Shown: positions 24,243-27,896 of the stretch, piece by piece
Numbering within the stretch: position 1 is the first letter of the stretch
How the letters are laid out: the number at the start of each line of letters is the position of its first letter
Source: an uncultured Lewinella sp.
Lineage (GTDB): Bacteria > Bacteroidota > Bacteroidia > Chitinophagales > Saprospiraceae
Assembly: GCA_913056515.1 (NCBI GenBank)
Contig: CAJXMP010000011.1
Span: forward strand, 1 to 34,370
Reading direction: 5' to 3'
DNA length: 34,370 bases
Program-made: the position numbers and the translations under genes
Notes under the pieces: generated by a model
What the model was told of the DNA's origin: nothing
Database searches by the model: none
Seen by the model: the letters and a program-made list of their open reading frames with translations, nothing else

Positions 24243-24911
24243 ATGAAAGGAAGGTATATTATCCTTTTGGTGATTTTTAGCTTGAATCAAATTGGATTTG
24301 CACAAACCTTGCAACCTGGGACGGATTTCGCTATCGTTGTTAGTCTAGCTACTAAGTTTAATAAGTCTACCTACATGGAGGATAAACTGGCAGCTGGTGG
24401 CTTGAGTGAAAAAGACCAACTGTTCTATGAAAACACCCTAGAGGAAATCAGTGGAATGGTAGATCAACAAGAAACCTACATCAAAACAGCTTTTGCAGCA
24501 CGTTACATGACTAATCAAGTGTATTTTATATATGATTACATGCTGAAGGCGGATCAAAAGGACGATTTGTTTTTGATCGATTTAAAAGGGCAGCAATTGA
24601 AACTTTCGGATTTGGGTAGTTTGCCCGTGCTTTTTGTTCGTTCAGGAGATTTTTCTCCAACATTTTTAACGGAGGAATCTTTAAGGATTTTGAATAATCA
24701 GTTCGAACCTGCAAGTGCTCCTTTGGGTATGTTCAAAACTATAAAGGTGCGAGGGAATGCTTTATTTGCGTTAAAAAAGCCAGCGGATCAATGGGCAAGA
24801 AGTGTAGCGTATTTTCAAGAACACCTCAACACTGTTTTTTCAAGTAAGACCACTAGTGCTCAAGCTCAAGAATCCTTATTTTTTACTGATTTTCCAACTC
24901 CTCAAAACTAA
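24243..24911 (+). CDS. Secreted protein of unknown function
   Basis: A 222 aa protein with a clear signal peptide (MKGRYIILLVIFSLNQIGFAQ). The mature part is mixed helical and beta, with phrases such as QETYIKTAFAARYMTNQVYF and DLGSLPVLFVRSGDFSPTFL. It has no cysteine, no recognised motif and no membrane segment, and I do not recognise the family. The chosen ATG gives the signal peptide; a TTG 81 bases earlier adds residues before it. It is divergent from moxR and its last 29 bases overlap the end of the convergent lipoprotein gene. A soluble periplasmic protein is the most that can be said. Confidence 0.7.
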   Translation: MKGRYIILLVIFSLNQIGFAQTLQPGTDFAIVVSLATKFNKSTYMEDKLAAGGLSEKDQLFYENTLEEISGMVDQQETYIKTAFAARYMTNQVYFIYDYMLKADQKDDLFLIDLKGQQLKLSDLGSLPVLFVRSGDFSPTFLTEESLRILNNQFEPASAPLGMFKTIKVRGNALFALKKPADQWARSVAYFQEHLNTVFSSKTTSAQAQESLFFTDFPTPQN

Positions 24912-25248
24912 GCGAATCAAATAGAGGATCTAGCTTGGAGGTATCTGTAAACTCTAATATTTCAGGAAGGCCTGGTCTGCCTACTCGGTCTGGTTTAGGT
25001 ATAGTGTCGAGCCTTTTTCTAGCATCATCTAATAAGATGGAGTCTACGATCAGATTAGCTTTTGAAAAAAATTCACGTTGACACTTTTCTGCACTAGTCA
25101 TTTGATACTCCACGATTCGTTGATCAATATGCTCTTGCATCAATTCCTCCTGAACACGCTGACGTTCTAGATTCCTATCCTTTCTAGAGGTACAAGACCA
25201 CGCGATAGGACCAATCACTACAATGATCCACAAATATCTATTCTTCAT
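24883..25248 (-). CDS. Small lipoprotein, distal gene of the lptB operon
   Basis: A 121 aa lipoprotein: [19 protein letters not shown] has the lipobox IAWSC with C19, followed by a basic, helical region. A segment EKC, then 11 residues, then VDSIL (near 55-71) matches the same arrangement in the lipoprotein encoded just upstream (C, 11 residues, VDSIL), so the two look like paralogues. Both then have a basic helix and a Lys-Pro. It overlaps the upstream gene by 11 bases and the convergent secreted-protein gene by 29. Function is unknown. Location in an lptB operon suggests a role in the outer membrane or LPS path, but this is inference. Confidence 0.75.
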   Translation of the reverse strand: MKNRYLWIIVVIGPIAWSCTSRKDRNLERQRVQEELMQEHIDQRIVEYQMTSAEKCQREFFSKANLIVDSILLDDARKRLDTIPKPDRVGRPGLPEILEFTDTSKLDPLFDSLSFEELENQ

Positions 25249-25504
25249 TTGTAGGCTTTTTGGATCGCTCTATTTGAGCTTTGATTTTAGCTCTGCGAAG
25301 ATTAAGAATAGAATCTACTACCTGATCTAAATGCTCTTCCTCCAGTAATTTGCATAGGCTATCCTGCTCAGTTGTGAGCATAGGGATTTGTTCTTTATAA
25401 ATACTATCTGCAATACGCCTATTATTCAAGCGAAGCTTTGGCGCTGGTGGTTCAGAACAAGCCACTAACAAAAAGAATATGGGTAGACATTTAATCCAAT
25501 TCAT
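25238..25504 (-). CDS. Small lipoprotein directly after lptB
   Basis: An 88 aa lipoprotein: [16 protein letters not shown] has the lipobox LLVAC with C16. The mature chain is helical and charged, with DSLC, 11 residues and VDSIL, then a basic stretch ending KKPTNEE. It resembles the next protein in the operon and may be its paralogue. The ATG overlaps the lptB stop by four bases (ATGA), and its end overlaps the next gene by 11, so all three are translationally coupled. I do not recognise a named family. Confidence 0.78.
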
Positions 25505-26256
25505 GATTCGCTTGGGTCGATTTGAATATCTTTCCGTTTGAGCTCAAAGTTTTGACCAAGATACACCCGACGTACTTGCTCATCTGCTGCTAATTCCTCA
25601 GCTGTTCCCGCTTTAAGAATATTCCCTTCAAACATCAAATAAGCCCGATCTGTAATGGAAAGTGTCTCTTGTACATTATGATCCGTGATTAAGATGCCAA
25701 TATCCTTAGTTCTTAGTTTAGCCACAATGTATTGGATATCTTCTACCGCGATCGGATCAATTCCCGCAAAGGGTTCATCGAGTAAAATGAAGTTAGGTGA
25801 AGTAGCTAGCGCTCTGGCTATTTCTGTTCTTCTTCGTTCTCCACCGGATAAAGAATTACCCAAGTTTTTTCGAACTTTTTCCAATCTAAACTCGCTGATT
25901 AGGGACTCTAGCTTTTCTTTTTGCTCTTCCTTAGATAGGGTGGTCATTTCTAATACCGCCATGATATTATCCTCTACAGACAACCTTCTAAATACACTAG
26001 GTTCCTGTGGCAGATAACCGATTCCTTTTTGAGCCCGTTGGTACATAGGTAAGGAGGTGATTTCTTCTTGATCTAGAAAAACGCTACCTCCATTGGGTTT
26101 CACAAAACCAACTACCATGTAAAACGAAGTAGTTTTCCCCGCTCCATTAGGTCCAAGTAGACCAACGATTTCACCCTTTTTCACCTCTAAAGAAACACCC
26201 TTTACGACTGTTCTTTTGCCATATACTTTGACTAATTCTTCTGCTCTTAGGATCAT
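25501..26256 (-). CDS. lptB: LPS export ABC transporter ATP-binding protein LptB
   Basis: LptB powers extraction of LPS from the inner membrane by the LptB2FG transporter. Walker A is GPNGAGKT at 35-42. The helical segment [17 protein letters not shown] is diagnostic of LptB. The signature is LSGGE at 136-140, Walker B is FILLDE at 156-161 and the H-loop is ITDHN near 189. Length of 251 aa is normal. LptF, LptG, LptC and LptA genes are not in the window. It follows an Ig-like lipoprotein gene by 11 bases and overlaps a small lipoprotein gene by four. Confidence 0.94.
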
Positions 26257-26267
26257 ATCTCTTTGCT

Positions 26268-27896
26268 TTATTCCCAGTTGATAATGGATTCAACCTCCCA
26301 ATTCTCTCTAAGCTTTTCTATGGTAAATATACGCCTTTTTTCAGCATGTAACTTCTGGTCATAATTCCCCGTATCCCACTGTCCATTTTTGTTCTTGTCT
26401 TCAATCAATACCAAGGTATAGTCTCCTGGAAACATTGGACTGATGGTTTTAGTGAAGGTACTGCTTTGATTGATTTCAAAGGATGCTATGACATCATCCT
26501 TGAGTTGTAAAGATGCAAAATAGTTCAGCGTGCTATCTAAGCTATTGATGGATAGAGTCAGACCGGATAACACATCGGCTGTTGCAAAGTCGTATCTGAT
26601 TTTCAGACTGTCTTGCCTTTTCTCATGCATAGTAGTGAAACTCCCAGGCAAAAACTGTAGGATTTTGGTTTTAAAGGTATCCTTAGGCAGCTTAATCCAA
26701 AAATTTCTTGGGTCGAGTGGATCAGGTCTAGCTAGGGATATGCTATCAATAAAAATACTATCTGCATATACGTGCGCCATAAAGGTATCCGTCATCATAA
26801 CAGGTTCTTCGAAGCGTAATTGAAGACTATCGCCAGGTAATAATTTGGCCTTGGTCATATTGGTGTTTGGTCGATCTATCTGATGTCTTTCCAAGTCGAA
26901 ACTTTTATCTGCTGTAGATAGATAAAAGGTATCCATAAAACTCGGGTGATCTAAGATGACTTGGACAGAGGTATCTCCTTTAGGATTATACCAAATTTGG
27001 AGTTGGTCTTCCTCTAAGATATACTCCATGTCTTGGTAACGATCAATCGATATAGTTAGACTATCTGGTACTCTATTGAATGTGAAAGTAGCAAGGCCCT
27101 TCGTTTTGATATCTTTTTCTATGATTCTAAGTTCTTGTACTTCTTGGAACATATCGAGTTGGATAGGCTGAAAGAAGCTATCTGTTAATACAACTGCGCT
27201 ATCAATAAATCCTATGAGTTCACTCTCCAAATCGAATAAGTAATTGACATTCTTATCTACTAGGGCAATTAATTTAAAAGTATCTGCTCGGAGGTTTCTG
27301 AAATGATAAAAACCTTGATTGTTGGTTTTAGTGAAGTAAAACGGCTTTTCGGTGCGAACTACGGAATCTTGTAAGGAGGTATATAACATGACCAAAGCCT
27401 TATCAACCGGTTCATTGGAAAATGCATCCAACACCTGCCCTTTTAATTCCAATGAATCAATATAGTCGCCTGTTGAAAAGACATAACGGAGATCATAAAC
27501 ATTACCTTCTGTGTAGTCTTTAATAGCGTTTCCAAAGTTGATGCTGTAGGTTACATCGTCCTTTAGTATTTCCTCTTCTGCAAATTTGAAGATGACCGTT
27601 TTGAATTTTTTTAGTTCTACGTCGAAGTTATAATCTAGGGGAGGAGTGATAATGACTTGCTCCGCTGGGCTTTGTAAGTTGAGAAATTCATCGAAGGTGA
27701 AAAAGAGGTCTTGCTTTTCAAATCTAATGACCTCATTGGGACTAGATAAAAGGGTATCAAGTACTGGAGGAATAGTGTCTCTCGGACCTCCAGTTGGATT
27801 GACTATTTGAGCACAGGAGGAGCTACTTAGTCCTAGGGATAAGTACCAAAGTAAACTAAGGAGGGTAGAACAAATAGCCAAAAGTTTTTTTCCCAT
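26268..27896 (-). CDS. Ig-like domain (Big_5-type) envelope lipoprotein
   Basis: A 542 aa predicted lipoprotein, with a long signal segment and lipobox-like SSSSC at C28. The mature start [15 protein letters not shown] is typical of Bacteroidota Big_5/SbsA Ig-like proteins. The Ig-like domain spans about 38-140 ([23 protein letters not shown] broken by turns). A carboxypeptidase-regulatory-like domain follows (about 152-230: [21 protein letters not shown]). The C-terminal beta region has [12 protein letters not shown]. The family is widespread and uncharacterised. It leads the operon with lptB and two small lipoproteins, suggesting an outer-membrane task. An exact TAnnTTTG sits four bases before the ATG. 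Confidence 0.83.

Follow-up and report, generated by a model that had tools for sequence, protein, structure and literature searches.

The two short exported proteins encoded directly after lptB in this DNA of an uncultured Lewinella sp., here called P1 and P2, are a real and so far unannotated protein pair with a wide occurrence in the order. As a whole, they are best explained as ancient paralogues that would act together as a pair, a reading to which we give a probability of about 0.55. If it is right, P1 and P2 form a conserved envelope pair of the order, left without a family model because each protein is short and divergent; with one inner cysteine each, they would also make a simple, testable object for the study of how the Bacteroidota periplasm is organized.

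The window, that is the whole stretch of 34 370 nucleotides that was analysed, carries lptB, P1 and P2 in this order on the minus strand, with overlaps of 4 and 11 bases (Table 1). The initial annotation had described lptB followed by two small lipoproteins, with these overlaps, and the coordinates confirm the order and the overlaps. LptB scores 373.7 bits against NCBIfam TIGR04406 (cut-off 240; E = 3.1e-112), and its nearest named relatives, with 83% identity, are titled Saprospiraceae. An Ig-like protein (Big_5; 26268–27896, minus strand) lies upstream of lptB. On the other side, a convergent gene for a secreted-like protein of 222 residues (24243–24911, plus strand) shares 29 bases with the 3′ end of P2; Pfam and NCBIfam gave no match for this protein. 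The order xerD-like gene, Ig-like protein, lptB, P1, P2 is found again in loci L096 and L097, where the xerD-like gene and the relatives of the Ig-like protein are named from their sequences. The window also contains, past a convergent gene, what we take from its sequence to be a moxR-like gene.

Table 1. Positions in the window of the three genes and of the sites discussed in P1 and P2.
Feature	Position	Strand	Remarks
lptB, LPS export ABC transporter ATP-binding protein, 251 aa	25501..26256	-	First of the three genes; TIGR04406
P1, short, presumably helical lipoprotein, 88 aa	25238..25504	-	Lipobox LVAC, one inner Cys, three D-S-hydrophobic sequons
P1 predicted lipid-attachment Cys16	25457..25459	-	Invariant in alignment A1
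P1 inner Cys51	25352..25354	-	Invariant in alignments A1 and A3
P1 core sequon D64-S65-I66	25307..25315	-	D[ST][AILMTV] in 34/34 family members
P2, longer helical exported protein/lipoprotein, 121 aa	24883..25248	-	One inner Cys, Pro/Lys-Arg tail with terminal P-L-F motif
P2 predicted lipid-attachment Cys19, lipobox AWSC (atypical)	25192..25194	-	
P2 inner Cys56	25081..25083	-	Invariant in alignments A2 and A4
P2 core sequon D69-S70-I71	25036..25044	-	D[ST][AILMTV] in 34/35 homologues
P2 tail, Pro/Lys/Arg-rich linker and terminal P-L-F segment, about residues 83–119	24892..25002	-	

Homologues were collected with iterated profiles over loci from 60 related genomes, an LptB search and extra stretches. 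With weak matches included (E up to 1), P2 was matched in 42 and P1 in 39 of the 60 genomes. This first collection comprises 34 P1 and 35 P2 members, 69 distinct frames in all; 33 of the P1 and 31 of the P2 enter alignments A1 and A2, respectively. The motif C-x11-xD[ST] is present in 34/34 P1 and 35/35 P2, and a recount over the distinct frames gave 69/69. The Cys-x11-VDSIL that had been noticed in both window proteins is indeed there (starting at Cys51 of P1 and Cys56 of P2), and its conservation in homologues makes chance unlikely. The invariant columns include C16, C51, D64 and S65 in A1 and C56 and D69 in A2, and the inner cysteine is the sole cysteine of the mature chain in nearly all members (33/34 P1 and 34/35 P2). 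All 34 P1 members have a lipobox cysteine (32 by pattern, two more by eye), which qualifies P1 as a lipoprotein. In P2 it is present in about 24 of the 35 homologues (22 by pattern, corrected by eye), and same-genus orthologues of the window P2 carry the lipoboxes LSSC and LHAC. The view that both are lipoproteins thus fits the lipoprotein-like N-terminal signals of both window proteins, but for P2 it is weakened by the atypical AWSC and by the 11/35 homologues that lack the lipid cysteine. Likewise, the basic helix followed by Lys-Pro is seen in both window proteins (..SKKPTNEE in P1, ..IPKPDR.. in P2), but Lys-Pro is a family feature of P2 only.

A second set, made up of L059 from a Saprospiraceae genome and 30 loci from other families of the order (31 in total), extends these observations. 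Both genes occur in 29 loci, 28 of which belong to those other families, with P1 before P2 on the same strand, although the adjacency is biased in L312–L331, which were picked for close P1/P2 hits; L030 and L059 also belong to the first collection. The remaining two loci, L198 and L199, are those of genome G076, in which P1 and P2 lie apart. The full motif, with D[ST] at the same spacing, is present in 23/30 P1 and 20/30 P2 of this set, and in the seven P1 and ten P2 printed without it the cysteine persists, as judged by eye. The cysteine is better conserved than the D-S site.

Neither P1 nor P2 has a Pfam or NCBIfam match above the curated cut-offs. Scans of 33 P1 and 31 P2 members with both libraries returned stray matches only, in one to three members each: EIAV_Rev, PRK04239, the SA0632 lipoprotein, BamM, BamJ, LptM, PspA and others, whose scores as shown are far under the cut-offs and which we rejected as signal-peptide or helix noise. 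PDB profile searches with P1 and P2 reached a best E value of 0.04, and the titles and abstract openings of the top-ranked open-access entries held no description of the pair.

Whether the two families are related was addressed by profile–profile comparison, which had been proposed beforehand. Pairwise BLASTP of P1 and P2 is not significant (E = 0.12). Comparison of A1 with A2 by hhalign shows significant similarity: the probability is 97.2 (E = 3e-11) with signal peptides and, once these are removed, 88.6 (E = 2.6e-6). The reversed control gave E = 0.066, and none of 200 column permutations reached the P1–P2 profile score. This control replaces an earlier one, with maxima near 130, that was not reproduced. 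When Cys, Asp and Ser were masked the profile score fell from 33.4 to 16.0 (E = 0.013), with 44 columns still aligned; most of the similarity is therefore concentrated in these three residues' columns. Relative to the cysteine, hydrophobic positions are common to P1 and P2 at −19, −15, −11, −8, +8, +12, +15 and +16. The register is not identical, −4 being hydrophobic in P1 only and +4/+5 mainly in P2. The cysteine lies 27–32° from the hydrophobic face and the sequon serine 99–172° away from it, in a fit that includes the Cys and Ser columns. An iterated search also pulled each family into the other, which we do not count as evidence of paralogy.

A single gene in another family of the class (genome G392, same class as the window; L304:1501–2142) encodes both halves as one lipoprotein of 213 residues, with C-x11-VDS in the first half and C-x11-ADS in the second; three PGRK motifs are seen at its end. 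The N-terminal part scores 30.7 bits with the P1 profile and 15.8 with that of P2, and the C-terminal part 44.1 bits with P2 and 25.4 with P1. In a search around G392 the fusion was found in one of 60 genomes, G392 itself included. Because alignment A5 set rows of P2 against the P1 half, the fusion was modelled by itself, as a single sequence, with poor confidence (mean pLDDT 62.7, pTM 0.35); the model has helices at 29–82 and 115–154. We estimate from it that the acidic linker, of about 32 residues, would be long enough for a parallel arrangement of the two halves. A frame of 812 residues in G295/G308 (genus g74) that looked like a fusion of P1 is not one: a stop codon separates P1 from its neighbour, which from its sequence we take to be a cyclophilin-like HEAT-repeat protein.

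It must be asked at this stage whether the two families are in fact unrelated small helical lipoproteins, alike through a coiled-coil-like form and a sequon that is general in the phylum. Exported proteins of Bacteroidota are described as O-glycosylated at D(S/T)(A/I/L/V/M/T) (PMC8729774; PMC12871550). The VDSI of both P1 and P2 fits this sequon, of which each protein has three in its mature, exported region, the further ones lying at D33 and D48 in P1 and at D81 and D111 in P2. In the window and the loci taken as Saprospiraceae, with crude protein classes and P2 copies left in, the sequon was observed 114 times in 30 predicted lipoproteins against 31 expected (3.7-fold); for 101 secreted-like proteins the enrichment is 2.2-fold and for 203 cytosolic-like ones 1.5-fold, and over the three classes the reversed motif gave 0.8, 1.0 and 1.9, respectively. 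The shared VDSIL is thus probably a glycosylation site, as predicted from its sequence, and as such it says little by itself about ancestry. This reading of the motif, the BLASTP result and the loss of most of the profile score on masking all favour unrelated proteins. Against them stand the 11-residue spacing, exact in every member of the first collection, the conserved single cysteine, the largely common hydrophobic register, the 44 columns over which the masked profiles still align and the score that each family also obtains with the half of the fusion assigned to the other. We consider independent origins doubtful, and P1 and P2 are probably ancient duplicates. The initial annotation had suggested duplication from the shared form and the tight coupling to LPS export. 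As far as VDSIL is concerned the argument from form is weak, the sequon being the simpler reading, but a duplicated, uncharacterized envelope pair is supported by the profile comparison, the largely shared register and the natural fusion, with no convincing known family. If the reading as a sequon is right, the xDSI/L that is conspicuous in small Bacteroidota lipoproteins should be read as a glycosylation site before it is taken as evidence of kinship. P1 and P2 resemble known substrates of this O-glycosylation in their D-S/T-hydrophobic sequons; unlike these, their glycosylation is predicted from sequence, and it would not explain the strict cysteine or the pairing of the genes.

The occurrence of the pair was followed in the family taken as Saprospiraceae (f1) and the order taken as Chitinophagales, both assigned from titles. 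Among 87 Saprospiraceae genomes of an order-wide sample, 83 have both P1 and P2, three have neither and one (G282) has only a weak P2 match (3.5e-4). This co-occurrence is partly trivial, since nearly every genome has both genes and a search would overlook divergent copies of the two at once. P1 and P2 are adjacent in 75 of the 83 genomes, and the eight exceptions all belong to genus g74. Outside this sample, genome G013 carries its lptB-linked P1 on one contig and its P2 on another. It also holds, besides these genes of Saprospiraceae type, a second P1–P2 pair of the type found in other families, whose P2 has three GKK motifs (L059:1459–2228).

The link to lptB is looser. In 49 of 80 Saprospiraceae genomes, representing 34 genera, P1 directly follows lptB, with at most about 130 bases between the two hits; in the other 31, from nine genera, lptB does not adjoin P1, and genus g19 is in both groups. 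The denominator is 80 instead of 83 because the LptB of G133, G155 and G175 was unplaced. Adjacency of lptB to P1 or P2 was found in none of 29 genomes of other families: in 26 the genes are on different draft contigs and in three on the same contig at least 36 kb apart. These 29 genomes were picked by eye for having P1 or P2 together with LptB rows, and several of their P1/P2 rows, with E values of about 1e-6, may not be true members. Conversely, of 80 named lptB loci at least 20 have P1 downstream, a lower bound as several loci end shortly after lptB (e.g. L212); 19 also have P2, L211 ending before it. The 20 are titled Saprospiraceae, Portibacter lacus or unresolved Bacteroidia, Bacteroidota or Chitinophagales, and none of them is titled Flavobacteriales, Flavobacterium or Chitinophaga. 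The gene order lptB–P1–P2 is therefore common to many genera of the family without being required. The P1–P2 pair is conserved more than its link to lptB, which looks like a local arrangement. The survey of lptB neighbourhoods, likewise proposed beforehand, hence found the linkage kept in many related genomes but not in all, and the tight coupling to LPS export that had been suggested is supported only in part, with lptB next to P1 in the 49 genomes but not in the remaining 31 or in any of the 29 of other families.

These data bear on the possibility that the pair is a dedicated accessory of LPS export, aiding the assembly or the oxidative maturation of LptB2FG, LptA and LptD as LptM does for LptD in Escherichia coli. 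The co-directional, overlapping genes directly after lptB, the recurrence of this order in Saprospiraceae genomes and named lptB loci, and the conserved cysteine are what one would expect of such an accessory. Yet P1 or P2 is kept where lptB is elsewhere, in 31/80 Saprospiraceae genomes and in all 29 others (mostly drafts, with the genes on different contigs). Genome G020 keeps the pair by a gene that we take from its sequence to be moxR-like, with lptB elsewhere, so the lptB link may be inherited gene order. LptM (YifL) of Enterobacteriaceae is comparable as a small lipoprotein tied to LPS export, with a disulfide theme in that it promotes disulfide formation in LptD. It is about 6 kDa and carries PF13627 (PMC10567701), a domain with no match in P1 or P2, nor in any of 33 P1 and 31 P2 members at E = 0.01; the NCBIfam LptM model matches one of 33 P1 (E = 0.0087), at the level of the other stray matches. 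We find a dedicated accessory quite improbable: a dedicated LPS-export role is unlikely, and what points to a possible specific role is the operon alone. A tether or spacer between the outer membrane and the cell wall, whose basic tails would bind peptidoglycan or another polyanion, has to be weighed as well. It would be a counterpart of Braun's lipoprotein Lpp, a small lipidated helix that oligomerizes. P1 and P2 would likewise be small helices, mostly lipidated, that associate, and their small size, the long helix and the Pro/Lys linker of P2 suit this role. So do the ends of P2 tails outside Saprospiraceae (L312–L331, L199–L210), where two to four, mostly three, basic-glycine copies are seen, in letters that vary by lineage (NRPGA, TGKK, DRPG, DKMGG, RGGA), a pattern suggestive of concerted evolution of the copies. 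A short motif in two to four copies was counted in 30 of the 31 tails of the second set, the fusion included, although some of the counted repeats sit in the Pro/Thr-rich linker instead of the basic-glycine motif. By shuffling, without correction, only 11 of the 31 tails show a significant count. The Saprospiraceae tails moreover mostly lack such repeats (one copy in 18, two in 14 and three in one of 33; none by eye in the window) and have no conserved terminal lysine. Unlike Lpp, P1 and P2 are two probable paralogues with an inner cysteine and a Pro/Lys tail, and the Lpp family is absent from their Pfam and NCBIfam matches. A tether of this kind appears rather improbable.

We thus return to P1 and P2 as paralogues acting as a pair. 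The AlphaFold2 model of P2 (31 rows; mean pLDDT 91.1) is a single helix over residues 3–81, signal included, followed by coil with a four-residue helical turn at 115–118. Such a lone amphipathic helix implies a partner, and P1 is the obvious one given its matching register, its single cysteine and its similar distance from the lipid anchor: lipid and inner cysteines are 33–39 residues apart in P1 and 27–39 residues apart in 27 of the 29 P2 that have an earlier cysteine. A P1–P2 heterodimer is probable on these grounds, and a disulfide between the inner cysteines is plausible; the near-universal single mature cysteine, its nearness to the hydrophobic face and its like distance from the anchor in both proteins are consistent with such pairing. 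In the arrangement we propose, the two helices would run next to each other, parallel and in register, and at about 35 residues from the membrane anchor a Cys51–Cys56 disulfide could lock them together. D-S-hydrophobic sites on the outer face would carry the general O-glycan of Bacteroidota. Since the lipid cysteine is absent in 11 of 35 P2, P1 may anchor the pair, its lipid keeping both at the membrane even where P2 has lost its own. The P2 tail, which has one to six KP/RP dipeptides across the family and has P-hydrophobic-hydrophobic near its end in 30/35 members of the first collection, would extend into the periplasm or to a partner, and we think that it binds a periplasmic or cell-wall component more likely than an Lpt protein. 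In many Saprospiraceae lptB would share the operon and yet stand outside the P1–P2 unit. A further elaboration is speculative: an order-wide module, a parallel, lipidated heterodimer that is disulfide-locked and O-glycosylated, would dock a periplasmic or cell-wall partner by tail motifs differing by lineage (basic-glycine repeats or the P-L-F of Saprospiraceae) and would have been drawn into the lptB operon in Saprospiraceae, where it may assist LPS export in a redox-sensitive manner.

Other small lipoproteins were seen in the course of this analysis. In other Bacteroidia, five loci (L294:1164–1824, L295:1171–1803, L296:1501–2176, L297:1501–1908 and L298:1501–1929) encode D-S-I/L-rich small lipoproteins, in pairs in three of the five, most of them with K-P linkers and basic-glycine tails. 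They resemble P1 and P2 in combining short and longer lipoproteins with a D-S-I/L-rich helix, a K-P linker and a basic-glycine tail, but those read have no inner cysteine and their link to P1/P2 consists of weak profile hits; they are possibly distant relatives. Finally, EGF-like, cysteine-rich small lipoproteins (CKDVVC..NGVC..G.CDC) are encoded near the P1–P2 pair or its relatives at L193:3563–4066, L202:3986–5163, L203:3629–4144, L206:4018–4524 and L297:2598–3083.
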